Notes under the pieces: model-generated
What the model was told of the DNA's origin: nothing
The model's input: only the letters and a program-made list of their open reading frames with translations
Databases searched by the model: none
Assembly (NCBI RefSeq): GCF_032393985.1
Contig: NZ_CP135918.1
Span: forward strand, 1,798,001-1,862,000
From: Fischerella sp. JS2
Lineage (GTDB): Bacteria; Cyanobacteriota; Cyanobacteriia; Cyanobacteriales; Nostocaceae
Reading direction: 5' to 3'
DNA: 64,000 bases
Shown: positions 6,084 to 59,109 of the stretch, one piece after another
How positions within the stretch are numbered: position 1 is the first letter of the stretch
Layout: each line of letters begins with the position of its first letter
Made by a program: the position numbers and the translations under genes

Positions 6084-6193
6084 TGCCTATAAAAAATCTA
6101 GCCCCTCTATCCTGACAAATGTAGGTTTTTTACAACAACCTTGGGAACGGGACAAGGAAGAAAAAATCATTGACAACCAACAACTAACTATAA

Positions 6194-7238
6194 CTATACT
6201 TTTACCCCTTCAATCACACTGACAGGAGATGGAGTTGGGATGATATTGGTAAGTTGAAACCCAGCAGCAGCAAACAGTTCTTTATATTCGCTAGCGGTGC
6301 GTTCGCGTCCACCAGTAGTCATGATTAACATTTCAATGTCAATAAATTTACCAGGAGAGGGTTCGTTAACTCCTGAAATCACAGCTTCTATAATCAGAAC
6401 TTTGCCGTTTTCTGGAATCACTTGATGACAGTTTTTGAGAATTTGAATGCATCTTTAGATCATCCCAATCATGAATAATATGTTTCATGATGTAAGCATC
6501 ACCACCACTGGGTACGGATGCAAAAAAGTCTCCACCGATCGCTTGACAACGTTCTTTTAGTCCAATTGCTTCTATATGCTGAGTTGCACCTGCAACTACA
6601 CTTGGTAAATCATAAACAATTCCCTTCAATGTCGGATTAGCTTGAAGGATACTAGTCAGCAAACTACCATGTCCACCACCAACATCAACTAGAGTTTGGA
6701 TAGATGAGAAGTCGTATGCAGCCACAACACCAGTGATTTCAACTGCCGAAAAACTAGTCATTGCTGCATGAAAAATAGCAGCTGCTTCTGGGTTTTGACC
6801 CAAATACTCGAAGATAGGCATTCCATTTACATAATCAGATGCTGGTTTGCCAGTTTTGACACTATAAAGAATTTTTCCTAAGGGTTGCCAGCGCCAATCT
6901 TCACCACCACACATAACGGCAACATCACGCAATGAACCAGAAACACCACTTCTGAGTAATTCTGCCATTGGTGTAAGTTGAAAATGACGGTTCTCGTCTT
7001 CACTAAAAATGCCAATACTTGCGAGAGCCCGCAATACCCGATACAAAGATTCTGCATCAACAGCAGTAGATTTTGCTAGTTCTTCACTGCTTTTAGCACC
7101 ATCTTGAAGTAAATCGGCAACACCTAATTTAGCAGCTACGTAGATCGATTGAGTCACCCAAGGAGCCGTAATCATTTGCAGCAGCGTCTGCGCTAAGGGG
7201 CTTTGGTTACTTTGGTTGAGATTTTCTAGGGTGGACAT
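6194..7238 (-). pseudogene. frameshifted family-2 O-methyltransferase
   Basis: SAM-dependent O-methyltransferase of the plant-COMT/CrtF-like family: N-terminal winged-helix dimerisation region (about residues 10-100), then the Rossmann core with VDVGGGHGSLL (about 190) and the catalytic-type HIIHDWDD (about 250). Immediately after HDWDD the frame is lost near 6457-6463. The rest of the domain (RCIQILKNCHQVIPENGK and on to VIEGVKV) continues in another frame and ends at 6194. The local sequence gatgat-CTAA-agatgc, against an expected gatgat-GAA-agatgc, points to one extra base. The upstream frame would run into an unrelated tail and lose part of the SAM domain. It could be decay or a sequencing error; the neighbouring genes are clearly decayed. 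Confidence 0.85.
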
Positions 7239-9536: not shown

Positions 9537-11798
9537 TCACCACAAACCTACTTGTTGTCTTAGTTCTTCCATATCTAAATGATCACTCGCAAAAGCTTTC
9601 CGTAAAAGTGCATGGGGAATAAACTTGTCATACTTCTGAATTTCTGGTGCTTCTGCATCACTCAATAAATTCTCAGCTGTAATTCTTTGCTCACACAAAG
9701 AAAGAATTTCTGGATAAAGAGAGCTAACTTTTGTTTTATCTAATTTAATTATTAAATAATACGGATTTACACCGCCAATACTTTTAATTGCTAAAGATTC
9801 ACGACAAAACATGTTCAGTAACCTTTCCAAAGTCCGATAAGCCACTGTACCCATCCAAGGAAAAATGCAACACTTATCTTTAGCCAAAAGTAAAATATTT
9901 TTTTGCTCTAATCCACAATTGCGTGTGAGTTCGCGAACTATACGTAAACGCTGAATCGCGTTATTTTGCAAATAAGGGTATTCTATATCTTCAACTAAAA
10001 CTTGTCGCATTCTTTGGAGGACACGTGTATGAATTGTACCGCTACCACCACGCCAAAAAATACTTGCTTGCCCTTCAACTTGCTTTACTAAAATAATCTT
10101 CTTTTTAAAATCAACTTCTACAACTTCCCAAGTTCTCCCTGCCAAAGCAAATTGATTACCTACAGGCGGCGGCATAGATATACTACCAATTTCTGTAGCT
10201 CCTTGCTTAACCACGAACTCCTCATTATCTGGGAAGACAGCGTAAAATTGGAACTTACCCACTACCCTTTCACCAGCCAAACCCAAAATGAGTTTACCTT
10301 CTTCAGTCAATTGTAGATGATTAATATCAATTAAATAGCGTAGTAATAATTTCAAATCATCTTTGGATACAGCAGCAAACACAGGTAAACTCAAGACTTT
10401 TTGAGCAAGAGTAACTGGTGAAATTTCACCAACTGCTACTAAAATGCTCATAGTTTGGTGATACAACAAACTAAACGGATATCGCACAGGCTTAATTGGC
10501 TCAATCCACTTTTCCTCCAAATAAAGTTGAATAATTGCAATACACTGCAACAGTTGCCAAGGAATTTGTTCCGGTAGAGATGCTTCTTGTAATACTTCAT
10601 TTTCGGCACAAACAAAGCGCATATCAGCAGCTTCACCCCTTCTACCTGTACGTCCCAAACGTTGTAAAAAACTTGCTACAGAAAGTGGCGCTTCTAACTG
10701 AATCACCCGTTCAAGATAACCAATATCTATACCTAATTCTAAAGTTAAAGTTGCAGCAGTCACAGCAGGTCGATTCGGTTCCCGCATCGCCCTTTCTGCA
10801 CCTTGTCGCAAGCTAGCAGAAATACTGCCATGATGTACATGATATATATCTGCTTCCCCTTCCTGCATTGCCACTTTTCGTAAAGAAGCAATCACCGCTT
10901 CAGTCTGCGACTTGTTATTAGCAAAAATCAAACACTTACGATTCTTACTCAAATTAAAAATATATCTTTCATAACTACTTTTTCCTCCTAGTAATTCACC
11001 TGCTTTTCTTTCTTGGTGAACTTTGTTTTCTTTGTGGTTTGTTTCATCAATAACCCCATCATCAACGTCAACAAAAAAATGCTCCACAGCCAACCTAACT
11101 TGCCTATTTCCCCCCTCAATCTTGGGTGTAATCACCGACTTTTTACTCCCAGAACATAACCACTCCTCAGCCAATGCGTAATCACCAAGAGTAGCCGATA
11201 AACCAATTCTACGGGGTTGCTTTTGCGTCAAATTTTCCAACCTAGCCAACTGACAAAGAATCTGACAACCCCTTTCCGTACCCATAAAAGCATGAATTTC
11301 ATCAATGACAACAAATCGTAAATCACCAAACAAACGCTTGATGTCATGATATTGATTAATTAATAAACTTTCTAAAGACTCCGGTGTGATTTGCAGAATA
11401 CCTCGAGGATTTTTAAGCAGCTTACTTTTATGACTTTGAGAAACATCACCATGCCAATGCCAAACAGGGATATCTACTTCTTTGAGTAAACCATGCAAAC
11501 GTGCAAATTGATCATTAATTAAAGCTTTAATTGGGCCAATATACAATGCACCAATCGTACTTGAGGGATTTTTATGTAATAAAGTCAAAACTGGTAAAAA
11601 CGCTGCTTCTGTTTTTCCAGCAGCCGTAGCAGCCGCAATTAATAAATGAGCATCTGTATCAAAAATCGCTTGACATGCTGCGATTTGAACCGGACGTAAT
11701 TCCGTCCAGTTGTGATGGTAAATATATTCTTGAATAAAAGGTGCAAGCCGGGAAAATATGCGTAAATTTTGCTCATCTACGTGTATCTGCTTTGACAT
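9537..11798 (-). CDS. DEAD/DEAH-box helicase, Lhr-like
   Basis: Superfamily 2 ATP-dependent helicase of about 753 residues. Visible motifs in order: Q-motif region around ELRPVQIAACQAI, Walker A ATAAGKTEAAF, Walker B VIDEIHAF (DEIH), motif III SATLGD, motif V LELGIDIG and motif VI QRLGRTGRRG. A long C-terminal half includes a winged-helix-like segment with FWRGGSGTIHTRVLQRM, as in Lhr-related helicases. Family members act in nucleic-acid repair or RNA metabolism; the exact substrate is unknown. The frame continues to a GTG at 11855, but the ATG at 11798 gives the natural N-terminus before the Q-motif. No operon partner is evident; a small lipoprotein gene lies about 100 bp upstream on the same strand. 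Confidence 0.88.
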   Translation of the reverse strand: MSKQIHVDEQNLRIFSRLAPFIQEYIYHHNWTELRPVQIAACQAIFDTDAHLLIAAATAAGKTEAAFLPVLTLLHKNPSSTIGALYIGPIKALINDQFARLHGLLKEVDIPVWHWHGDVSQSHKSKLLKNPRGILQITPESLESLLINQYHDIKRLFGDLRFVVIDEIHAFMGTERGCQILCQLARLENLTQKQPRRIGLSATLGDYALAEEWLCSGSKKSVITPKIEGGNRQVRLAVEHFFVDVDDGVIDETNHKENKVHQERKAGELLGGKSSYERYIFNLSKNRKCLIFANNKSQTEAVIASLRKVAMQEGEADIYHVHHGSISASLRQGAERAMREPNRPAVTAATLTLELGIDIGYLERVIQLEAPLSVASFLQRLGRTGRRGEAADMRFVCAENEVLQEASLPEQIPWQLLQCIAIIQLYLEEKWIEPIKPVRYPFSLLYHQTMSILVAVGEISPVTLAQKVLSLPVFAAVSKDDLKLLLRYLIDINHLQLTEEGKLILGLAGERVVGKFQFYAVFPDNEEFVVKQGATEIGSISMPPPVGNQFALAGRTWEVVEVDFKKKIILVKQVEGQASIFWRGGSGTIHTRVLQRMRQVLVEDIEYPYLQNNAIQRLRIVRELTRNCGLEQKNILLLAKDKCCIFPWMGTVAYRTLERLLNMFCRESLAIKSIGGVNPYYLIIKLDKTKVSSLYPEILSLCEQRITAENLLSDAEAPEIQKYDKFIPHALLRKAFASDHLDMEELRQQVGLW

Positions 11799-19191: not shown

Positions 19192-20001
19192 TTACTTATA
19201 GGCTATATTACTATGGGTAATTGCTTTGGGATTGCTATTTGTTTCCATCCCATCCTCATACAGGAGTTTCATGACATCATCTTTGTATTTCTGAAATGTA
19301 GTATGGCGCTTGATTTGAGGATTCGATTTGCTAGGTAGTTGGATTTGCAATTCCTGCCTAATTGTACCTGGTCGCGCACTTAATACGTAGATGCGCTGTG
19401 ATAAAAAAATTGCTTCCTCCACATCATGAGTGATCATAAAAATTGTCGTGCTGGTACTACGCCAAATCTCCAGTAAAAATTGCTGCATTGCTTCTTTTGT
19501 TTGTGCATCTAAAGCACCAAAGGGTTCATCCATAAGTAAAATTTTTGGTTTCGATGCTAAAGCACGGGCGATCGCTACTCGTTGTTTCATCCCACCAGAA
19601 AGTTCTTTCGGTAGCGCCTTCGCAAACGTAGATAAACCTACTACCTCAAGATAATAAGCCGCCTGTTGTCGTCGCTGGGCTTTCGGTACGCCCTGTAGCT
19701 TCAAACCAAATTCTACATTTTCGGCAACACTCATCCACGGATAAAGAGTATAGCTTTGAAAAACCATACCACGATCAGATCCTGGCCCTGTAACGCACAC
19801 CTCATCAACCAGTATTTCCCCTGCTGTCGGAGTATCCAACCCTGCAATTAGGCGTAGCAGAGTTGACTTACCAGAACCACTAGCACCTACTGCACAGACA
19901 AATTCTCCCTCTTCAATGTGCAAACTAATATCTTGCAGCGCAGTCAGCAAACCGCGCTTAGTTTTGAATTGTTTGTGGAGTTGATTAATTTCTAAATGCA
20001 T
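19192..20001 (-). CDS. ABC transporter ATPase, guanidine locus (TauB/SsuB family)
   Basis: Nucleotide-binding subunit of a nitrate/taurine/sulfonate-type importer. In 269 residues it has Walker A GASGSGKST (about 40-48), the signature LSGGMKQR, Walker B ILLMDEPFGALD and the switch His in MITHDVEEA. It is the last gene of the minus-strand series, 13 bp after the permease. In Synechocystis the same order of ATPase, permease and binding protein beside hypB, hypA and the guanidine hydrolase (sll1082-sll1077) is established, so guanidine is the likely cargo; within the family alone taurine or sulfonate could not be excluded. Confidence 0.9.
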   Translation of the reverse strand: MHLEINQLHKQFKTKRGLLTALQDISLHIEEGEFVCAVGASGSGKSTLLRLIAGLDTPTAGEILVDEVCVTGPGSDRGMVFQSYTLYPWMSVAENVEFGLKLQGVPKAQRRQQAAYYLEVVGLSTFAKALPKELSGGMKQRVAIARALASKPKILLMDEPFGALDAQTKEAMQQFLLEIWRSTSTTIFMITHDVEEAIFLSQRIYVLSARPGTIRQELQIQLPSKSNPQIKRHTTFQKYKDDVMKLLYEDGMETNSNPKAITHSNIAYK

Positions 20002-20014
20002 AATTTGTTATTTG

Positions 20015-20872
20015 TTATTTGTCATTCGTCATTGCCCACTTACAAGAAGCGCGCAATAATAATCGAAACAAAAGGTCAATTCCTAAACCAATTAAACCAA
20101 TTACAATTAACCCAGCAAAAATTTCATCTGTTTTCAAATATCTTTGGGCAACACTAATTCGTCGTCCTAAACCTTCTGTTGCTGCTACTAATTCCGAGAC
20201 AATTACTAAATTCCAAGATGCTGCCATATTCACACGGCAAGCATCGATGATATTAGGCAGAATAAATGGGAAAATGACTTGTAGTAAAACTTGTTTTCTT
20301 TGACCACCTAAAGTATAAGTAGTTTCTAATAATTCCTTGGGAACAAACTTCACTGCATCCATCACCATCAAGGTATTAAAAAACAGTGTGCCGATAAAAA
20401 TCAGCATGATTTTTGGCGTTTCTCCCAAGCCAAAATATAAAATTAGTAAGGGAATAAATGCAGGGGCTGGCATATAGCGGACGATGCCAATCAGTGGTTC
20501 TAGTAAGGCTCGAATGCTGGCAAAAGTCCCCATCAATGTGCCTAATGGAATAGAAACAATTGCTGCTAGCGAAAATCCACTCAGGACTCGCAATAAACTA
20601 AAAGCAATATCTTTTTGTAAATCTCCACTTACCAAAAGCCTTTGAAATGCATCCCAAACTTGACCAGGAGAAGGAAGAAATAAAGGTGGAATTAAGCCTG
20701 TATTAGAAATAATCCACCACAGAAGTATAGGTACGGTAATTGACAAGAACATTAAAGCCCAAGCCAAGTTATGAGGAATATCCTCAGCAATGCACCAAAA
20801 GTATGATTTTGGTAACATTTTCTGAGGACGAGCAAAATTGATTGCTTGCAAATCTTCAGCGTTATGGTTCAT
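20015..20872 (-). CDS. ABC transporter permease, guanidine locus
   Basis: Inner-membrane permease of 285 residues with about six membrane segments and the BPD_transp_1 coupling region ETTYTLGGQRKQVLLQVIFP, near the EAA loop. A cytosolic N-terminal stretch of about 30 residues precedes the first helix. Its ATG overlaps the stop of the binding-protein gene in an ATGA tetramer (20869-20872), so translation of the two is coupled. It pairs with the ATPase downstream and the lipoprotein upstream as one importer. Confidence 0.9.
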   Translation of the reverse strand: MNHNAEDLQAINFARPQKMLPKSYFWCIAEDIPHNLAWALMFLSITVPILLWWIISNTGLIPPLFLPSPGQVWDAFQRLLVSGDLQKDIAFSLLRVLSGFSLAAIVSIPLGTLMGTFASIRALLEPLIGIVRYMPAPAFIPLLILYFGLGETPKIMLIFIGTLFFNTLMVMDAVKFVPKELLETTYTLGGQRKQVLLQVIFPFILPNIIDACRVNMAASWNLVIVSELVAATEGLGRRISVAQRYLKTDEIFAGLIVIGLIGLGIDLLFRLLLRASCKWAMTNDK

Positions 20873-21909
20873 GATTTTTGCTTAGATGCATAGGCTTTGA
20901 TAAAGCGATCATCAAAGATTTGGTTAAGATTCGGCGCTTGTTTAATCAAACCGCTTTCAACCAGAAATTTACTAATTTCTTCAGCAGCGTATCTAATAGA
21001 TGTCATGTTGTTACCAGCATTAAATGCTTGCAAATTGTCTTCTAGAGTAAAAATTTTAGTTCCTGCGTCGTATGCCTGATATTCGGCAACAGAAACCCCT
21101 GCACGTTTTGCCATAATTTCGTAAGCTTTTGCTTGATTTGCTTTGATAAAATCTAAGGTTGCAAACCAAGTATTTACTAATGCCTGGACATCCTGGGGAC
21201 GCTGATTAATGAGTTGGCGACTGACAACTAAATGGTCAGGAATTGCTCCTGGAAAGTCTTGAGAACTAAATAATTCTTTACTGCCAGGACGTGATAAAGC
21301 CTTTGTGGTGAAGGGTGCAAACACTCCCACTGCATCAACTTGACCAGCAACAAAAGCTGCGGCGGCTGCACCTGTTTCTAGTGGTTGGAACTGAATATCA
21401 GCTTGTGTTAAACCTGCTTTTTTTAAACCTAGTAATAATAAAAAATGGTCAACAGTTCCTTCTTCAGCCGCAACTTTTTTGCCTTTGAGGTCAGCAATAG
21501 TATTAATTCCTTCTCTGACAATAATTTTATCGTTACCAGTGGAATTGTCATTGACCAAAACAATCACCTGGTCCGAACCAGCCGCTACTGAACTAATCGT
21601 GTCATTTAAAGTTTGAGTATTGGCATCTAATTGACCTGCCCTCAAAGCATTAATGGAATCTAAATAGCCATCAAACCACTTCAAATCGACATTAACTTGA
21701 TTTGCTGCAAATAACTTTTGTTCTTGAGCAATTTGCCAAGGAAACCAACCAGGCCAAGCACTAAAACCAAATTGAATTGGTTTAGTATTTGTAGGAGTTG
21801 CAGCAGAATTTCCCGATGTAGAAGTTTGTGGAGAAGGAGTGCAACTGACTGCAACAATTAAACTGATGAAAAATAAAGCTAATAAAGATGGCAAAATGCG
21901 TAACTTCAT
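20869..21909 (-). CDS. ABC transporter substrate-binding lipoprotein, guanidine locus
   Basis: Periplasmic binding protein of the NMT1/TauA-like family (346 residues) anchored as a lipoprotein: hydrophobic N-terminus with lipobox AVSC, Cys23. The mature part begins after a Ser/Thr/Pro linker and shows FGFSAWPGWFPWQIAQEQKL and the AEEGTVDHFLLLLGLKKAGL helix typical of the fold. By locus conservation it should bind guanidine or guanidinium. It is separated by 22 bp from an OmpA-fused binding protein upstream, so two binding proteins serve one permease. Confidence 0.9.
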   Translation of the reverse strand: MKLRILPSLLALFFISLIVAVSCTPSPQTSTSGNSAATPTNTKPIQFGFSAWPGWFPWQIAQEQKLFAANQVNVDLKWFDGYLDSINALRAGQLDANTQTLNDTISSVAAGSDQVIVLVNDNSTGNDKIIVREGINTIADLKGKKVAAEEGTVDHFLLLLGLKKAGLTQADIQFQPLETGAAAAAFVAGQVDAVGVFAPFTTKALSRPGSKELFSSQDFPGAIPDHLVVSRQLINQRPQDVQALVNTWFATLDFIKANQAKAYEIMAKRAGVSVAEYQAYDAGTKIFTLEDNLQAFNAGNNMTSIRYAAEEISKFLVESGLIKQAPNLNQIFDDRFIKAYASKQKS

Positions 21910-21931
21910 GAAACTCCTCTCACAACTAACA

Positions 21932-23494
21932 TTAATTAATACGAACTAGACGAATTTCCGTGCGTTGATTACGTTTATCCTCAGGGTTAACTCCAGGCAG
22001 TGGCTGGCTAGAACCTTTACCCACAGCTACAATCTTGTGCTTGAGACCGCGATCGCGCAGATAATTCGCTACTGTCTGCGCCCGTTTTTGACTTAGAGTT
22101 TGGTTAAAATCGGCCTCACCAAACTTAGAAGTATGGCCAATCACTCGTACGGCTATTGTTTGTTCGTTGAATTCTGCAATCTCCCGACTCAGCTTATCTA
22201 GCGTTGCCTTACCTTTATCGGTAAGCAGGGCAGAGTCAGTTGTGAATTTCACCTCCCCTTGCTGTTGCAAATTGCCAATATTAGGGGCAGTGGCGATCTG
22301 ATTGGGATTGAAATTAGGGATAGCAGCGATCGCTTTTCCTTTACCAGCAAATCTGTCTGCTAATTCTGGGTTATCAATACGCACCTGTTGAATCAAATTT
22401 TGAGTGTTTTGTGCCGCCTTTGCCATGAACTGGGAGGTAAACATTTCCTTGGAATTCTGGGGAACCTGATTCATTTTGCCTACTAGCGCCAGCACCGCAG
22501 CAGTAGAGTTGATGCGTTTCTCTAAAGTGCCATCCTTCATCCAGTTGTCAGCTTCAACGGAGGTAAAAAAGTCAATGCCTTGCAAAACTGCACTAGCATC
22601 AGTGCTAGATAACTTGCCATCAAGAGCAATTTGTGCCTGCAACTGTTCAGCATTGCGGACATTAGTATCAATGAAGCGGTAATAAACAGTAAGTAATTGT
22701 GATATCTTCTCTGGTTGCGACTCAATTAGGCGGTTAGAAGCAACAATTACATCTACAATTGTTCCTGGTAAATCCTTACTCGATAACACCACTGTGTAAC
22801 CCTTGTGTCTAGCTTGGCTAACGTAAGGTTCCCAAAGCACAGCAACAGCTACATTTTGATTGGAGTCTTGCAATAGTTTCCAAGCTTCGGAAGCATCTGC
22901 CACTTTTTTGATTTGGAAATCCGACAGCTTAAACTCCTCAAATTTCGTAGTCAACACCTGTACCAAATACTCGCTAGGGGTATCGCCAGCAAAAACAATT
23001 GTGAACTGTTTTCCCTTGTTGCGTGCTTCCTCTACCAACTGCCTCAAAGCTAGCATTGATTTGAGATTAGGATACTTCTTAGTGTTGAGGATAACTGCGT
23101 CTGCTCCTACTGTAGTATCAATTAGCCCCACAATTTTTCCTTGAGGCTTTTGTTTAAGAAACTGATCCAGTGTCGTTACCAACAAGTCAGATTGTCCCTG
23201 GTTAAAACGTTCAGTGCGTTGAGTTTGGTCAAATTCATCTTCATAGCGCAGGTTTAAACCAGCTTGTTTTAGCGCTTCCAAAAAAGTCTGATTGCGAAAA
23301 GTGCTGTAACCACTAAAAGTGTCTCCCAAAAGTGTTAATTTTTCATCCGTCAATTCAGGTGCGGATGGATTTTTGACACTTGAAAAAGTAGGAGATGATA
23401 ATTGGTCGATCAGCCAAATCGTACCAAAAGTCAAACAAGAAACCCCTAGTCCAAGAGCCAAAAAAAGAAAAATGGGAATGTTACGCTTACTCAT
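21932..23494 (-). CDS. substrate-binding-protein/OmpA fusion in guanidine locus
   Basis: A 520-residue protein with an unusual architecture: N-terminal membrane segment (about 5-30), an NMT1-like periplasmic binding domain (about 45-330; LGDTFSGYSTFRNQTFLEAL, TIVFAGDTPSEYLVQVLT), a linker, and a C-terminal OmpA-like peptidoglycan-binding domain (about 410-520; VRVIGHTSKFGEADFN, LSQKRAQTVANYL, NQRTEIRL). It would tether a ligand-binding domain between inner membrane and peptidoglycan. It lies between ghaB and the lipoprotein binding protein. The frame is open from a TTG at 23527; the ATG at 23494 gives a better N-terminus. A sensor, or a scavenging accessory to the importer, are both possible; I know of no defined role. 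Confidence 0.82.
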   Translation of the reverse strand: MSKRNIPIFLFLALGLGVSCLTFGTIWLIDQLSSPTFSSVKNPSAPELTDEKLTLLGDTFSGYSTFRNQTFLEALKQAGLNLRYEDEFDQTQRTERFNQGQSDLLVTTLDQFLKQKPQGKIVGLIDTTVGADAVILNTKKYPNLKSMLALRQLVEEARNKGKQFTIVFAGDTPSEYLVQVLTTKFEEFKLSDFQIKKVADASEAWKLLQDSNQNVAVAVLWEPYVSQARHKGYTVVLSSKDLPGTIVDVIVASNRLIESQPEKISQLLTVYYRFIDTNVRNAEQLQAQIALDGKLSSTDASAVLQGIDFFTSVEADNWMKDGTLEKRINSTAAVLALVGKMNQVPQNSKEMFTSQFMAKAAQNTQNLIQQVRIDNPELADRFAGKGKAIAAIPNFNPNQIATAPNIGNLQQQGEVKFTTDSALLTDKGKATLDKLSREIAEFNEQTIAVRVIGHTSKFGEADFNQTLSQKRAQTVANYLRDRGLKHKIVAVGKGSSQPLPGVNPEDKRNQRTEIRLVRIN

Positions 23495-23616
23495 AAGACC
23501 CGTCGATTTTAGTATCGAATTAGACAATTTATTTGGTCTTTGCAGTAGATTTACGCGTGCAATTGCTCCCTGAGTTTATCTAATAAGTAAGGCTTTAATT
23601 TTTGTGACAAATTATA

Positions 23617-23743
23617 TCATGTCCGGATGAACACTTGTAAAAAAACGAAGAACCTCACCCCAACCCTCTCCTTGCTAAGGAGAGGGTGCTGAAGGCGGGT
23701 GAGGTAATGCAGAAATTAGTAAGTAATTAGCCGAACTTGATAT
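23617..23743. repeat. 127-bp MITE-like element, copy 1
   Basis: Identical, base for base as read, to 55304-55430. Imperfect terminal inverted repeats are visible when this copy is extended by a few bases: ATATCATGTCCGGATGAACA on the left against ATATCAAGTTCGGCTAATTA from the right end. Inside is a strong double hairpin, CCTCACCC/GGGTGAGG outside and ACCCTCTCCTT-GCT-AAGGAGAGGGT inside. No coding capacity. It lies in the 482-bp gap between ghaB and the OmpA-fusion gene, so it would be transcribed if the guanidine locus is one operon. The rest of that gap shows no gene. Confidence 0.85.
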
Positions 23744-23976
23744 TAGTCCTTTATCCTTAATCATTTTTCGTTAGTTTTGTAATTGCACCTTACAAATAGT
23801 GCAAAATAAATCTGTACTGTAGATGCATAAAATTGCACATTTCTACAACCTGCCAGTGTCAGGGTTAGTCAATTAATGACCTTCAGGACATGGTAAAGTT
23901 CCTATTAGGTCTGTTGATTATGACTTTGCGTAAATATCCGCATAATACAAAGTAGTGGCTCTTCTACCTACTTTCA

Positions 23977-24666
23977 CTATGAGCTTAAAGGGTAGTTTAG
24001 GGATTTGAACTGACGTACCCAATCAAACCAAACTTCCAAGCCTTCACCTGTTTTTGCAGACACAGGAATAATTGTGACATCGGGATTCATCTGACGGACA
24101 TTAGCTGCAATGCAGCTAATATCGATATCCAAATAAGGAGCCAAATCTATTTTGGTAATCAGCAGACAATCTGCTTCTTGAAACATAATTGGATATTTCA
24201 GAGGTTTATCTTCACCTTCAGTCACACTCAACAAAGCAACTTTGGCATGTTCTCCAACTTCAAATTCAGCAGGACAGACTAAATTACCAACATTTTCCAC
24301 CAGCACCAAATCAAAATCATCCGGATTGTATTCATGTTGGAGTCGATGAATTCCACCTGCCACCATTTTGGAATCTAAATGACAAGAACGACCTGTATTA
24401 ATTGCTATCACTGGCACACCGTATTTTCGCAGACGTTCTGCATCTAAATCGGTGGTCATATCCCCTTCAATCACGGCAATTTTTAACTCATTGCTCAAAG
24501 TAGCAAGCGTACGCTCCAGTAGTGCTGTTTTCCCTGCGCCCGGACTACTCATAATGTTGAAACAAATAATTTCCCATTCATCAAAATGCGATCGATTGTG
24601 ATCAGCCCCTTGCTGATTAGCATGAAGCAAGTTAATTCCTAATGCTGCGTCAAATGTTTGATGCAT
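23977..24666 (-). CDS. ghaB: HypB-like nickel GTPase for guanidine hydrolase
   Basis: SIMIBI-class GTPase of the HypB family, 229 residues. Walker [14 protein letters not shown], the switch region [13 protein letters not shown], metal-site-type GRSCHLD (Cys-His) and [13 protein letters not shown], and the base motif ITKIDL are all present; the His-rich N-terminal tail of hydrogenase HypB is missing. Encoded beside a HypA-like protein and the guanidine hydrolase, it fits GhaB, which helps deliver Ni2+ to GdmH. No hydrogenase gene is nearby. The start is chosen at ATG 24666 ([10 protein letters not shown]), 17 bp inside the ghaA 3' end; an ATG two codons upstream and a TTG at 24687 are alternatives. 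The overlap suggests translational coupling. Confidence 0.92.
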
Positions 24667-25012
24667 AAGCATACTCAATTTTGTCAATTTTTAACTCTCT
24701 ACCTGAACGAATATCCTCCATTGGAGAATTACACTCAGGACATGCATATTGCCAGCCAATTTGCGGTAAATATTCTCGTTGACAACGATGACAAAAGGCA
24801 ATTAATGGTGTTTCTTTAATTACCAGTTTTACCCCTTCTAAAAAGGTATCGTGCGTTTGCACCTCAAAAGCAAATTGTAAGCTGGCTGGTTCAACACAAG
24901 TAAACTTACCAACAATGAGGTGAATTTGAGAGATCTGAGGGCGCTCAGGCTGGGATTCCCACCAATCTTTGACAGTGAAAATGAGCGCTTTGGTCATATC
25001 AGTTTCGTGCAA
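24650..25012 (-). CDS. ghaA: HypA-like nickel metallochaperone for guanidine hydrolase
   Basis: Ni/Zn metallochaperone, 120 residues. The zinc site CHRC...CPEC is clear near residues 73-98. The decisive point is the start: a TTG at 25012, preceded by a near-perfect AGGAGG about 6 nt upstream, makes the protein begin M-H-E-T-D, placing the nickel-binding His at position 2 as HypA proteins require. Longer readings to 25066 would bury that His. It overlaps ghaB by 17 bp. In this context it is best named GhaA, the HypA-type partner in GdmH nickel loading, rather than a hydrogenase factor. Confidence 0.92.
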
Positions 25013-25094
25013 ACTTCCCCTCCTTCCTCCCAGGCTCAAACCCAAGACAACACCGACTAATATCAAATCCGATTAATCACTTACTGCATCTATA

Positions 25095-25152
25095 CCTCAC
25101 CCCGGCTGCGCCACCCCTCTGGTGAACCCGCAACAGAGGGGGAGGGGGTGAA
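25095..25152. repeat. dispersed CCTCACCCC palindrome, loop orientation 1
   Basis: Outer arms CCTCACCCC and GGGGGTGA enclose a hairpin CCCCTCTGGTGAACCCGCAA followed by CAGAGGGG. It sits between gdmH and ghaA. The copy at 28464-28527 has the same arms but its inner part is the reverse complement. Confidence 0.7.
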
Positions 25153-25227
25153 GTTGCGTTCCTCTGCGTTTAAGATCGCCACTTTTTTATGCAATCCCCA
25201 CACCACACACAAATGCCAATGATAAAC

Positions 25228-26421
25228 TTACCTCCAATCTTCCACTAACTCTGATTGGGCTTCGGAGTGAATATACCCGGGTTTTTCCTTGCGTGGTAAT
25301 TGACCAGATATGACTAAATGGGCCATTGTGTCGCAAATCACCCGTGTTGCCATTAATGATGTAATGTCACTGATATCGTAAGGAGGCGAAACTTCTACAA
25401 CTTCCAAACCACAAATAGGTGCTTTTTGGACAATTTTACCTAACATGGAAAGTGCTTCACGTGGTAATAATCCACCCGGTTCAGGCCAGCCTGTTCCAGG
25501 CACAAAACCAGCATCAATGCAATCAATATCAAAGCTGATGTAAACGCAGTCAGTACCATCCAAAGCTCGTTCTAAGGCAAAGTTGACTGCTGCATCTAGA
25601 CCCATCTCTGTAATATCCGTAACTGTGAGGATATTAGTGGCTCTTTCTCGGCAAACTTTTACACCTTGACGCGGTACTTGCCAACCACCAATCCCTAATT
25701 GCACAAGGTTCTTTGCAGGAGCATTTTTGATATTTGTTGCATGGAACCAGGGACAGGTATGCATTCTTTCATCAAGGTCTGTTTCCTGGGTATCAACATG
25801 GCGATCAAAGTGAATAATTCCGACTTTTTTGTCACCTAAGTGACGACAAACACCTCGCACTGTCGGAAATCCAATAGAGTGATCGCCTCCCATAATGATG
25901 GGAAACGCACCAGAACTAAAGATATGGGCAATACCTTTAGAAATCTGGTCAAAAGACTTTTCGTTATTAGCGGGAATGGTAAAAATATCACCCACATCAC
26001 ACAAGGTAATTTGCTCACGCAAATCAACACCTAATTCAAAGTTATAAGGAGTGTATAGTGCGGAAATACGGCGGATTCCTTGGGGACCAAAGCGAGTTCC
26101 AGGTCGATAGGTAGTTCCAGAATCGTGTGGTACACCCACGATCGCAACATCATATTCACCGACTTTCCGCACATCTTCTAAATAAGGTGCTTTCAAAAAA
26201 GTATTAATTCCAGCAAAGTGGGGAAGTTCACCGCGAGAAAAGGTAGGAATGGAGCGATCGCTGATACTTTCTGCCGCTTCTAAACCAAATTCTAATCCTC
26301 GAGAAACTTCCTGCTGCCACCCTGTCAGGGGTAAATTCGCTTCTTTTTCCAGCGCCCGATTCGCTTGTGTTTCCGGTCGTTGGAAATGAGAATTGGCATC
26401 ATTAAAAGATTGATCTGTCAT
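25228..26421 (-). CDS. gdmH: guanidine hydrolase (Ni-dependent ureohydrolase)
   Basis: Ureohydrolase-family enzyme predicted to split guanidine into urea and ammonium. The 397-residue length, with an N-terminal extension of about 80 residues before the catalytic fold, matches GdmH better than agmatinase or arginase (about 300-320). Metal-binding motifs: MGGDHSIGFP, HFDRHVDT (agmatinases usually have DAHxD) and SFDIDCIDAGFVPGTG. Context strengthens the call: ghaA and ghaB nickel chaperones follow, then an ABC importer, and a guanidine-I riboswitch precedes it, the arrangement known from Synechocystis Sll1077. The ATG at 26421 is about 35 nt after the terminator U-run; no clear Shine-Dalgarno. 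Activity on other guanidino compounds cannot be excluded from sequence. Confidence 0.93.
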   Translation of the reverse strand: MTDQSFNDANSHFQRPETQANRALEKEANLPLTGWQQEVSRGLEFGLEAAESISDRSIPTFSRGELPHFAGINTFLKAPYLEDVRKVGEYDVAIVGVPHDSGTTYRPGTRFGPQGIRRISALYTPYNFELGVDLREQITLCDVGDIFTIPANNEKSFDQISKGIAHIFSSGAFPIIMGGDHSIGFPTVRGVCRHLGDKKVGIIHFDRHVDTQETDLDERMHTCPWFHATNIKNAPAKNLVQLGIGGWQVPRQGVKVCRERATNILTVTDITEMGLDAAVNFALERALDGTDCVYISFDIDCIDAGFVPGTGWPEPGGLLPREALSMLGKIVQKAPICGLEVVEVSPPYDISDITSLMATRVICDTMAHLVISGQLPRKEKPGYIHSEAQSELVEDWR

Positions 26422-26454
26422 GTTTCAAAAAATGACATCTAAATGATTATAAGG

Positions 26455-26513
26455 AAAAACTATAGCCCGGGTAAGTCATAACAGTTCAATTTCTGCTATG
26501 TACCTCCCGGGCT
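26455..26513 (-). terminator. riboswitch-controlled intrinsic terminator before gdmH
   Basis: On the minus strand AGCCCGGG (26513-26506) pairs with CCCGGGCU (26471-26464). CAUAGCAG (26500-26493) pairs perfectly, with one G-U, with CUGUUAUG (26484-26477) around an 8-nt loop. AUAG and UUUUU follow (26455-26459). The 5' arm, AGCCCGGGAGG, is also the 3' conserved strand of the guanidine-I aptamer, so ligand binding and termination are mutually exclusive. Confidence 0.9.
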
Positions 26514-26608
26514 TTTTTCCCGCCGTGTGCCAGTTTTTGCGAAACTGGGTGCTTCTCTTGGACCAGTCGTTTAACTTCTAATAATTAAACCGGAACCCTA
26601 GAAGCTAT
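26503..26608 (-). promoter_or_regulatory. guanidine-I (ykkC) riboswitch aptamer
   Basis: The minus-strand RNA contains the conserved blocks of the ykkC/guanidine-I class in the correct order: CUAGGGUUCCGG (about 26602-26591), ACUGGUCCAAGAGAAGC (about 26568-26552), a variable hairpin CCAGUUU-CGCAAA-AACUGG, ACACGGCGGGAAAAAAGCCC and CGGGAGGU (26526-26503). It precedes gdmH and overlaps the terminator at 26455-26513. The expected logic is that guanidine stabilises the aptamer, frees the downstream arm and lets transcription reach gdmH-ghaA-ghaB and possibly the transporter. Confidence 0.93.
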
Positions 26609-26669
26609 ATGTTTTTACCCAATTGCTAATAGTTATTTTTGAGGACAGGCTTTTTATACCCAAAGTTTA

Positions 26670-26711
26670 TAGATAGCAATTATTTTCTCACAAAAATGTA
26701 TTATTAGATAC
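26670..26711 (-). promoter_or_regulatory. NtcA-type site and -10-like box for the guanidine operon
   Basis: GTATCTAATAATAC on the minus strand (26711-26698) is a perfect GTA-N8-TAC NtcA site. Exactly 22 nt further on, TATCTA (26675-26670) sits where the -10 (TAN3T) of an NtcA-activated class II promoter is expected; it misses only the last T. A transcript starting near 26660 would have about 50 nt before the riboswitch. The site is palindromic and could also act on the plus-strand gene at 26907. Confidence 0.6.
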
Positions 26712-55562: not shown

Positions 55563-57305
55563 TCAAAACAAAAAATAACGCTGTGCCATTGGTAGAACCG
55601 TTGCTGGTTCACAAGTTAACAACTCTCCATTTGCCCTAACTTCGTAAGTTTCTGCATCTACTTCCATACGTGGTAGTGCATCATTCAACTTCATATCCTG
55701 CTTACTTAACTGTCGCGTCCCAGAAACTGCAACTGCTTGCTTTTGCAACTTCAACTGATTAGGAATATCGCTTTCTAACGCTGCTTGGGAGATAAAAGTT
55801 AATGATGTCGCGTGACGCGCACCTGCAAAACTGCCAAACATTGGACGCATATGTACAGGCTGGGGTGTGGGAATACTGGCGTTAGCGTCTCCCATCTGCG
55901 ACCATGCAATCATGCCACCTTTAATTACTATTTCTGGTTTCACACCAAAAAATGCTGGACGCCACAAACATAAATCTGCAAGTTTACCCTCTTCCACTGA
56001 ACCTACATACAGTGAAATTCCATGCGTAATTGCTGGGTTTATGGTGTATTTTGCCACATAGCGTTTTGCCCTGAAGTTATCATTCTGAACCCCCCCTGTT
56101 TCCCCCCCTTGGTAAGGGGGGGATGAAAGGGGGGATAAAAATCCGCGTTGCACTTTCATTTTATGTGCTGTCTGCCAAGTACGAATTATGACTTCCCCAA
56201 CTCTGCCCATTGCTTGGGAGTCAGAAGAAATCATGCTAAATGCGCCCAAGTCGTGCAAAATGTCTTCAGCAGCGATGGTTTCCCGACGGATGCGTGACTC
56301 AGCAAATGCCACGTCTTCAGCAATTCCTGGATCGAGGTGATGACAAACCATCAACATATCCAAGTGTTCATCAAGAGTGTTAACGGTATAAGGACGGGTG
56401 GGGTTAGTGGAGGATGGTAAAACATTTGTCTCACCGCAGACTTTGATGATATCCGGCGCGTGTCCACCACCTGCGCCTTCGGTGTGATAGGTGTGGATGA
56501 CACGATTTTTAAAAGCGGCGATTGTATCTTCTACAAATCCTGCTTCATTGAGAGTGTCAGTGTGAATCGCTACCTGCACGTCGTAATCATCAGCAACACT
56601 GAGGCAAGTATCAATCGTTGCTGGGGTTGTTCCCCAGTCTTCATGGAGTTTTAGCCCTATTGCACCAGCTAAAATTTGTTCTACAAGTCCTTGGGGTTGA
56701 CTGGTGTTACCTTTACCTAAAAATCCCAAGTTTACGGGGAAGGCATCAGCAGCTTGCAGCATGCGGTAAATATTCCAAGCTCCGGGTGTGCAGGTAGTAG
56801 CATTTGTACCAGTAGCTGGTCCAGTACCGCCACCAATCATTGTAGTAATTCCGGAAGCGATCGCAACCTCAATTTGTTGGGGACAAATAAAATGAATATG
56901 GGCATCAATTCCGCCGGCGGTGAGAATCATGCCTTCGCCAGCAACAGCTTCTGTACCAGGACCGATAATAATATCTATACTGTCTTGAATGTAGGGATTT
57001 CCAGCTTTACCAATTTTAAATATTTTGCCGTCTTTAATGCCAATATCTGCTTTGACAATACCCCACCAATCGAGAATTAATGCATTAGTAATTACCATAT
57101 CAACAGCACCATCAGCGTTGGAGACTGGGGATTGTCCCATACCATCACGGATAACTTTACCCCCGCCGAATTTTACTTCATCGCCGTAGGTAGTGAAGTC
57201 TTGTTCGACTTCGATAAACAATTCTGTGTCGGCTAGGCGGATGCGATCGCCTACTGTGGGGCCATAGGTTTCCGCATAAGCGCGACGATCCATTCTGTAA
57301 GGCAT
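55563..57305 (-). CDS. ureC: urease subunit alpha
   Basis: Catalytic subunit of Ni-dependent urease, hydrolysing urea to ammonia and carbon dioxide. 580 residues. All active-site elements are visible: HIHF (nickel His pair), the carbamylated Lys in [31 protein letters not shown], flap His CHHLD and Asp in [12 protein letters not shown]. Around residues 388-406 a GC-rich palindrome adds [19 protein letters not shown] in a surface loop where typical UreC has a shorter loop; total length exceeds the usual 567-572. The frame is open to 57407, but the ATG at 57305 ([10 protein letters not shown]) is natural. It is last in ureD-A-B-C order. ureE, F and G are not in the window. Confidence 0.95.
56085..56140. 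repeat. GC-rich palindrome inserted in frame in ureC
   Basis: CCCCCCCTTGGTAAGGGGGG with AACCCCCCC and AAGGGGGGA flanks. Similar to the uvrA insertion at 45790-45841, and in frame. Confidence 0.8.
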
Positions 57306-57339
57306 AATACATTCTTTCAAACTGAGTTTAGAATCGAGT

Positions 57340-57465
57340 TTAAACGCAAAGGGGCGCAAAGATAAGCGCAAAGGTTCGCAGAGGATAGATGAGGGGGTAG
57401 CAAACAAATCCTAACTCTGCGTACCTCCGCGTTTACCTCAGCGTTCCTCTGCGTTAAAGAATAAA
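57340..57465. repeat. dispersed repeat between ureB and ureC
   Basis: The 183-bp gap between ureC and ureB is filled by GCGCAAAGATAAGCGCAAAGG and CCTCTGCGTTAAAG-type strings, a family of complementary AACGCAGAGG / CCTCTGCGTT repeats common in Nostocales. No gene. Probably transcribed inside the urease operon. Confidence 0.6.
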
Positions 57466-58242: not shown

Positions 58243-59109
58243 TCATATCTGCCAAACTCTTGGCACACAGCTACCACGACTCAAAAAAGACATACGTAAT
58301 AACTGCCAAACACCGATAAACCAGTTTCTCACCTCAGCAGTTGAAGATCCACGATATCTACACAAAAGTCCATGTTCTAAACGAGTGACACCAAAGTGGG
58401 AATGGGTAATTGGCAATTGCCAAAGATTTCGGGCTTTTTCGACTATTTCTGGTGATATTTCTTGTCCAATGTAGACTAGACTACCTACGATTGGTTGCCC
58501 TGCTAAACCGTGGGGACTGTGAAAAACTTCTTCACTACCTGGTAGCCATTGTCGATCTATCCATAAAGGTTTACCTTGTTGCCAAATTTCGGTGTGCGAT
58601 CGCCACTCTCCTTGTAAAAATTTCTCTCCCCTCGCACTACGTCCAAATCTAGTAATTTCCCAGCCTAAATAATGAGAATTTGTAGCTAATTTGACTATAA
58701 TGTCTTGTCTGTATAATGCACGGTCAAAAACAATTGTTTCTTGGGGCAACCATTCTAAACAAGCATTATTATCAACTTTGATCTCAATAATTTGTTTGGC
58801 AATCATACCATTACTACGGTAAATTTTGCCAGCAGTCGCGGTAGTAATTAATGCTTGAGCATGGGGTTGGAGGTGGAAGTTGTAAAATAAGCGATCGCCT
58901 CCCACAATACCCCCAGCTGTATGTAAAATCACACTATGACAAACTTCTTGTCCTTCTGGATAAAATGGGCGTTGTACTTTTAGCGGTGCTTGATTTTGAT
59001 TGAAAATCAACTGGGTTTGATTTTGGCGATAAGCATACACTAAGTGTAAATTCCCATGCCAAAAATCCTTGCTTGGTGTTGTGATTGGATAATTACAATG
59101 CTGGTTCAC
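58243..59109 (-). CDS. ureD: urease accessory protein UreD
   Basis: Scaffold for nickel insertion into apo-urease with UreF and UreG. 288 residues with LHTAGGIVGGDRLFYNF near residue 65, GWEITRFGRSARGEKF near 150 and the end FLSRGSCVPRVWQ. The start is a GTG at 59109. Only 15 bp separate it from the upstream methyltransferase gene on the same strand, leaving no room for an independent promoter except inside that gene. Confidence 0.94.
   Translation of the reverse strand: MNQHCNYPITTPSKDFWHGNLHLVYAYRQNQTQLIFNQNQAPLKVQRPFYPEGQEVCHSVILHTAGGIVGGDRLFYNFHLQPHAQALITTATAGKIYRSNGMIAKQIIEIKVDNNACLEWLPQETIVFDRALYRQDIIVKLATNSHYLGWEITRFGRSARGEKFLQGEWRSHTEIWQQGKPLWIDRQWLPGSEEVFHSPHGLAGQPIVGSLVYIGQEISPEIVEKARNLWQLPITHSHFGVTRLEHGLLCRYRGSSTAEVRNWFIGVWQLLRMSFLSRGSCVPRVWQI

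Follow-up and report, generated by a model that had tools for sequence, protein, structure and literature searches.

The window analysed here is a 64,000-nucleotide stretch of the cyanobacterium Fischerella sp. JS2 (NZ_CP135918.1, positions 1,798,001 to 1,862,000). It carries a guanidine locus of seven genes, all on the minus strand, preceded by a Guanidine-I riboswitch. Two components go beyond the guanidine operon as described in the available literature: a recurrent seventh gene, encoding a periplasmic binding protein fused to an OmpA domain (the OmpA-fused protein), and a positionally conserved NtcA-type site. Read from sequence, the locus is probably a guanidine nitrogen-scavenging operon, in which the OmpA-fused protein would be an accessory receptor for the importer, anchored in the envelope. 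Fischerella is a heterocyst-forming cyanobacterium, and the host genome is a single contig of 7.02 Mb. From 26711 to 19192 the order is: NtcA-type site, aptamer, gdmH, ghaA, ghaB, OmpA-fused gene, and the importer genes for the binding protein, permease and ATPase. The original prediction had placed riboswitch, gdmH, ghaA, ghaB and a three-part importer in one direction, and all are present on this strand. The OmpA-fused binding protein that it named is also found, with a PF00691 domain above cut-off, as is the NtcA-type site (table 1). Much of the spacing is tight: ghaA overlaps ghaB, the binding-protein gene overlaps the permease gene, and about 25 bases separate the OmpA-fused gene from the binding-protein gene.

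Table 1. Features of the guanidine locus and of the urease genes in the window.
Feature	Position	Strand	Basis or remark
NtcA-type site GTATCTAATAATAC (GTAN8TAC)	26698..26711	-	sequence motif, predicted site
extended -10-like element TGCTATCTA	26670..26678	-	starts 20 nucleotides after the NtcA-type site; TGnTA(T) in register in 17 loci
Guanidine-I riboswitch aptamer (RF00442)	26502..26612	-	87.1 bits, gathering score 63, E 3.3e-14
terminator-like hairpin	26455..26512	-	5' arm GCCCGGG is the last strand of the aptamer; 3' arm CCCGGGC, then TATAGTTTTT
gdmH, Ni-dependent guanidine hydrolase, 397 aa	25228..26421	-	predicted from likeness to Sll1077
ghaA, HypA-like nickel chaperone	24650..25012	-	PF01155 99.5 bits; TIGR00100 114.5, cut-off 88.1
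ghaB, HypB-like nickel GTPase	23977..24687	-	TIGR00073 313.7, cut-off 121.2
OmpA-fused periplasmic binding protein, 520 aa	21932..23494	-	PF00691, profile match, AlphaFold, Foldseek
importer substrate-binding protein, 346 aa	20869..21909	-	lipobox-like AVSC; TIGR01728 SsuA family 230.3, cut-off 163.5
importer permease, 285 aa	20015..20872	-	PF00528 83.1 bits; best NCBIfam model TauC, below cut-off
importer ATPase, 269 aa	19192..20001	-	PF00005 117.6 bits; best NCBIfam model SaoA, below cut-off
ureC, urease alpha subunit	55563..57407	-	PF00449 and PF01979; about 29 kb from the guanidine locus
ureD, urease accessory protein	58243..59109	-	PF01774 213.4 bits

The core of the locus belongs to a described family of operons. 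In Synechocystis sp. PCC 6803, sll1077-sll1082 is linked to the riboswitch and comprises gdmH, hypA and hypB together with the three genes of an importer (PMC8390497, PMC10094980). It has the same riboswitch class, gene order and gene families as the Fischerella locus, and its GdmH is 86% identical. The picocyanobacterial guanidine clusters Pro-eCAG_004 and Syn-eCAG_001 combine a riboswitch, speB2/gdmH, hypA, hypB and a TauABC-like importer (PMC10119275); unlike the Fischerella locus, most Synechococcus/Cyanobium copies have a downstream Rieske Fe-S gene. In Limnospira indica PCC 8005, ykkC-yxkD RNA182 precedes an agmatinase-labelled gene with hypA1/hypB1, in a cassette of six genes as against seven in Fischerella (PMC8400943). 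Reviews describe the gene set or name parts of it (PMC12186494, PMC12930504). Because the joined core is already described in these sources, the novelty that had been claimed for the joined locus holds for the OmpA-fused protein and for the conserved position of the NtcA-type site; the rest is already described together as sll1077-1082. The available text lists no OmpA-fused protein for the Synechocystis operon, whereas Fischerella has one between ghaB and the binding-protein gene, and the words OmpA and NtcA are absent from the main text of PMC10119275. The literature searched, which leaves out most subscription papers, yielded no paper that connects guanidine with an OmpA-fused binding protein. 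One candidate for such a link, PMC11446756, proved unrelated on checking of its available part.

The OmpA-fused gene is likely to start at the ATG at 23494, which gives the 520-residue product. The protein consists of an N-terminal hydrophobic segment, a TauA-like fold (residues approx. 47-363), a linker and an OmpA domain (approx. 417-510). The latter matches PF00691 with 60.4 bits (cut-off 27.2) over residues 428-521 of the listed open reading frame, which starts at a TTG. The AlphaFold model (mean predicted local distance difference test score, pLDDT, 82.4; residues 1-50 unreliable) shows a binding domain of two lobes followed by the OmpA domain, the domains being read from sequence and Foldseek. 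TauA (6ssy) is the best Foldseek match of this protein and also of the importer's own binding protein (mean pLDDT 88.7; template modelling score 0.75/0.87). A profile match pairs the two Fischerella proteins with probability 99.2 and an expect value (E) of 9.5e-20, at 20% identity over 295 columns that include a common SS-D-PG-I-D stretch; as judged by this alignment, they are homologous. Both share the fold of TauA/SsuA-type binding proteins (6ssy, 2x26), a likeness at the level of the fold, with identities of 16% (OmpA-fused protein) and 21-24% (binding protein of the importer). The three importer components are encoded in one unit and have Pfam domains above cut-off, which places the importer in the TauABC/SsuABC-type class. 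Guanidine is stated to be the substrate of Synechocystis sll1080-1082 (PMC10094980, PMC12186494).

The OmpA-fused gene recurs in guanidine loci of separate lineages. Its nearest named records are in Fischerella thermalis PCC 7521 (92%) and F. muscicola PCC 73103 (91%). A contig scan seeded with 12 cyanobacterial sequences gave 78 loci, all in cyanobacterial records. In Fischerella-type genomes, Coleofasciculus sp. LEGE 07092 (L131) and Aliterella atlantica (L201), ghaB comes before the gene and the binding-protein gene after it. At a contig end of a Chroococcidiopsidaceae genome (L184) the gene directly follows ghaB, and in a Limnothrix genome (L167) it directly precedes gdmH. In 12 further loci without gdmH it heads an importer cassette, although the importer of one of these (L192) is only 28-44% alike. 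Where both genes are present on the same strand and close together, the OmpA-fused gene lies 18-290 bases upstream of the binding-protein gene in 18 of 18 loci, order having played no part in the choice. Among 217 family-level genomes, the aptamer is found above cut-off in 27 (30 at E 0.001 or better), and nine match the OmpA-fused protein with E 1e-30 or better, one of them via the OmpA part only. Four of the 217 carry the gene in a guanidine locus: the window genome, G387, G527 and G525, with riboswitch and gene on two contigs in G387.

A tree of the family places nearly all paired members on one side of a branch. It holds 75 rows: 72 that remained after the removal of matches that covered no more than 400 query residues or had an in-frame stop, and L129, L184 (cut to 330 aa) and L185 (the longest piece between stops), which were added by hand. 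Rows count as paired when the partner gene lies on the same strand within 1.5 kb. By this rule 55 rows are alone, 12 have an importer only and eight have gdmH or ghaB; short contigs may hide neighbours of the rows counted alone, and one of these (L165) has a 57% identical binding-protein gene about 0.7 kb away on the opposite strand. One branch, with a Shimodaira-Hasegawa-like approximate likelihood ratio test (SH-aLRT) value of 97, divides 24 rows (12 importer, seven gdmH/ghaB, five alone) from 51 (50 alone and Limnothrix). Thus 19 of the 20 paired rows fall on one side, the very divergent L192 included. Within the tree the gdmH-linked label requires at least four changes. The tree comes from a quick search with SH-aLRT as its only support measure and no bootstrap, and the placement of the long branches L192 and L065 is unsure. 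A Xenococcus locus counted alone (L172, 1873-9410) has a Guanidine-I aptamer, ghaA and ghaB, with no gdmH match in the locus, and an OmpA-fused gene 4.5 kb downstream of ghaB.

Several observations weigh against reading the OmpA-fused protein as an anchored receptor for guanidine. In 12 Nostocaceae gdmH loci, which otherwise look complete, ghaB is followed by the binding-protein gene with no OmpA-fused gene between them, so the gene is dispensable. With 55 of 75 rows alone by the distance rule, the family as a whole is not dedicated to guanidine. The aptamer occurs in five of the 78 loci of the contig scan and is absent from all 12 loci that have the importer beside the gene but lack gdmH (for L140, within the only approx. 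370 bases available upstream), and the riboswitch was rejected as a general marker of the gene on these counts. Distances between sequences of the OmpA-fused protein correlate with those of the binding protein at r 0.53, as against r 0.94 for the permease; the value of 0.53 was reached by none of 2000 permutations over 17 loci, a test in which shared species history remains. Co-transcription with ghaB is not certain, because the gap of some 450-480 bases between the two genes contains a dispersed repeat. Inverted copies of this repeat (23697-23748 and 25055-25102) lie in both loose gaps of the locus, the other being the approx. 215 bases between gdmH and ghaA, so that they flank ghaA-ghaB. When one copy is taken with its surroundings (121 bases), 58 matches are listed genome-wide, the stretch itself included and some places counted on both strands. 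Consensus scans for promoters and terminators gave fewer sites than in shuffled sequence. The OmpA domain itself departs from the usual pattern. In OmpA-like domains the Asp of a GHTD motif and a downstream Arg hold the diaminopimelate of peptidoglycan. The family of the OmpA-fused protein has GHTS or GHAS in place of GHTD, with Ser for Asp in 71 of the 71 rows (of 75) that have the motif; the Arg, R471, does not vary among 29 aligned sequences. Of 14 other OmpA-match loci scanned, eight have the motif (four Asp, three Ser, one Asn). One Ser-bearing locus among them, L036, is a divergent family member, and because two of the seven outside domains with the motif have Ser, the substitution is not unique to the family.

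These points bear on a possible, though rather doubtful, alternative: that the OmpA-fused protein does a different job from the importer beside it and binds some other ligand, such as biuret, guanylurea, nitrate-like anions or phosphate, its gene having arrived by duplication from a second cassette. Besides the many solitary family members, the argument for it draws on that cassette. The same genome carries a paralogous set of OmpA-fused, binding-protein and permease genes at about C1:3319680-3323205 (L062); the 17 kb retrieved for this locus contain no aptamer. It is followed here by a PRMT-like methyltransferase gene, and in F. thermalis (L123) and G525 (L124) by a gene for an isochorismatase-family hydrolase. 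Hydrolases of biuret and of guanylurea belong to the isochorismatase superfamily, and the second cassette may therefore have a ligand related to guanidine. Binding-domain-only matches also enter on this side: of the 82 listed from 386 genomes (reaching about E 1e-4, OmpA-fused family members left out), 45 have a guanidine aptamer no more than 7 kb away, a count with no base rate, and the three best do not. The alternative has to contend with the recurrence of the gene at one and the same place in the gdmH loci of different lineages, near the gene for the importer's binding protein. Moreover, while the OmpA-fused proteins of the two cassettes are 60-61% identical, their binding proteins and permeases are 74% and 77% identical, so the ligand of the second cassette may itself be near guanidine. 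An accessory receptor of the guanidine importer is the reading followed here. More tentatively, the distribution may define a cyanobacterial class of envelope-anchored TauA-OmpA receptors, seen in cyanobacterial records only, in a scan that was itself seeded with cyanobacterial sequences. One clade of this class would supply a second receptor for guanidine-type importers, and the Fischerella locus would then encode a two-receptor importer gated by NtcA and a riboswitch; this wider proposal is perhaps somewhat more doubtful than not.

The NtcA-type site raises the question of chance. In the 64-kb window GTAN8TAC occurs 18 times as against about 20 expected from base composition, which is the chance level. 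It is an unlikely but arguable view that the site is a chance match and that the operon answers to guanidine alone. Evidence for function comes from homologous leaders. The Nostocaceae set comprises 20 loci fetched with aptamer and gdmH, of which one (L067) holds a gdmH remnant only. In 17 of these 20 the distance of GTAN8TAC from the aptamer is -95 to -105, and because its position is kept in this way the site stands above chance. Seven of the eight inner motif columns vary among the 17 loci, and the bases of the TGnTA(T) element downstream stay in register. The outer six bases are constant by choice of the 17 loci, which leaves the position and the variable interior to carry the argument; the counts take no account of strain kinship. 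More widely, at least one strict site lies within 200 bases upstream of the aptamer in 24 of 27 loci, the exceptions being L073, L172 and L069. For the chance view it can be said that the strains are related, so that a shared position is partly inherited, that L073 has no site and that the motif is shifted to -112 in L075 and to -124 in L074. The -10 region also counts for the chance view. A canonical NtcA-activated promoter has a -10 box, TAN3T, about 22 bases from the site; the element conserved in the aligned leaders of the 17 loci is TGnTA(T), not a clear TAN3T. In the window's gap between ghaB and the OmpA-fused gene no strict NtcA-type motif is present.

Expression data from Synechocystis bear on the same question. 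The operon sll1077-1082 is repressed by ammonium (PMC10094980), which fits NtcA control without proving it. The available text of that paper explains only part of the ammonium-repressed genes by NtcA and does not name the operon as an NtcA target, so ammonium repression alone does not point to NtcA, a consideration on the side of chance. No NtcA link to this operon appears in the available parts of PMC12930504, PMC12282138, PMC10094980, PMC8400943, PMC13192157 and PMC13226834. The conserved site nevertheless suggests that low nitrogen and guanidine act together. If it works, the operon would be an AND gate that opens when the cell is both nitrogen-starved and supplied with guanidine.

It is improbable that the OmpA-fused protein no longer binds a transport ligand and instead positions the importer, as a scaffold or sensor in the envelope. 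The fusion of an OmpA domain to a binding fold would suit such a role, as would the extra N-terminal part of some members (L125, 553 aa), but the binding domain has kept many invariant residues across 29 sequences, among them the SS-D-PG-I-D stretch that aligns with the importer's binding protein. The extension in L125 (2867-7901) is cysteine-rich, and the gene adjoins one for a tubulin-like protein (PF13809).

The assignment of gdmH was to be decided by a check named in advance, its closeness to Sll1077 relative to agmatinases and arginases. GdmH matches PDB chains 7esr/7oi1 (Sll1077) with 785 bits and 9fek with 596, compared with at most 170 bits for other arginase-family chains, and is identical to 7esr at 85.9% of 383 aligned residues and to 9fek at 68.8% of 362. 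On these scores and identities it is far closer to Sll1077. The motifs GGDHS, DRHVD and SFDIDC, which we take to be conserved arginase-family metal motifs, are common to GdmH and 7esr. The predicted danger of mislabelling as agmatinase is real: NCBIfam TIGR01230 scores 176.4, barely above its cut-off of 174.3, whereas the agmatinase subfamily model NF002564 falls below (209.2 against 302). That gdmH encodes an agmatinase within an arginine/agmatine catabolic operon is nevertheless highly improbable and was rejected, since the match to a guanidinase, at 785 bits, outweighs that to TIGR01230 and a guanidine aptamer precedes the gene. One further arginase-family gene is present elsewhere in the host genome. 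In two metagenome-derived assemblies of different lineages (L184, approx. 6192-6196; L167, approx. 10052-10056) the reading frame of gdmH breaks at A-rich codons around residue 199, likely through homopolymer sequencing error.

For ghaA the start is most likely the TTG at 25012 (MHETD...) and not 25066, and ghaB may start at the ATG at 24666. Both products, the HypA and the HypB-type GTPase, also exceed their Pfam cut-offs. A second HypA/HypB-like pair lies elsewhere in the host genome (C1:3813690 and C1:3812845), its HypB-like member 50% identical to GhaB, so ghaA and ghaB are separate copies.

The covariance score of the aptamer, a further check set beforehand, lies well above its threshold. 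With a covariance model built in this analysis, which includes the window sequence, the aptamer scores 98.2 bits, and it is the sole RF00442 match found in the host genome. A T run follows the terminator-like hairpin of the window leader. In minimum-energy folds, read by eye, the GCCCGGG strand is wholly or mostly paired with a downstream complement in 24 of 24 leaders. The folds took in 90-base stretches, namely the last 27 bases of the aptamer and 63 bases downstream. Aptamer and terminator would thus be mutually exclusive because they share this strand. Ligand binding turns expression on in the Guanidine-I class by a known mechanism, and the layout of the leader, as predicted from these folds, fits it.

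Together these components suggest a mechanism for guanidine use. (i) In nitrogen shortage NtcA would bind GTAN8TAC and switch on transcription. (ii) The leader would stop transcription at the terminator unless guanidine binds the aptamer, keeping its last strand out of the terminator. (iii) The transcript would yield GdmH, the nickel loaders GhaA and GhaB, and the TauABC-type importer. (iv) The TauA-like domain of the OmpA-fused protein would be held in the periplasm by the N-terminal hydrophobic segment and the C-terminal OmpA domain. (v) There it might capture guanidine or a related guanidino compound and pass it to the importer or to its binding protein, a step that we infer. (vi) GdmH would split guanidine to urea and ammonium, as Sll1077 does, and the urea would go to the urease, whose genes lie about 29 kb away. 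How much guanidine nature offers as a nitrogen source is poorly known. If the importer has a second receptor, possibly tethered to the wall, this would suggest selection for the capture of guanidine, or of a relative, at low concentration.

A natural deletion may show what GdmH needs. Genome G386, of the same genus, keeps the aptamer, the NtcA-type site and a 99% identical gdmH (L096, G386:C27 3958-5793). The genes ghaA and ghaB, the OmpA-fused gene and the importer are missing between gdmH and a thioredoxin gene, which begins about 138 bases after gdmH; in the window the thioredoxin gene lies beyond the ATPase gene. AATTACC repeats stand at the junction. A genome-wide check of G386 took in GhaB, the importer binding protein and the OmpA-fused protein. 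Best matches elsewhere are 50% identical for GhaB and 28% for the binding protein; the OmpA-fused protein gives weak OmpA-domain matches only. An assembly fault is possible, as the contig is 6.1 kb long in a draft of about 270 contigs; G386 is otherwise a possible natural experiment.

At the urease genes, the window has a 106-bit match to the Rfam family 5_ureB_sRNA (56864-57150, plus strand), antisense to the ureC coding frame. It probably reflects conserved coding homology and not an RNA gene.

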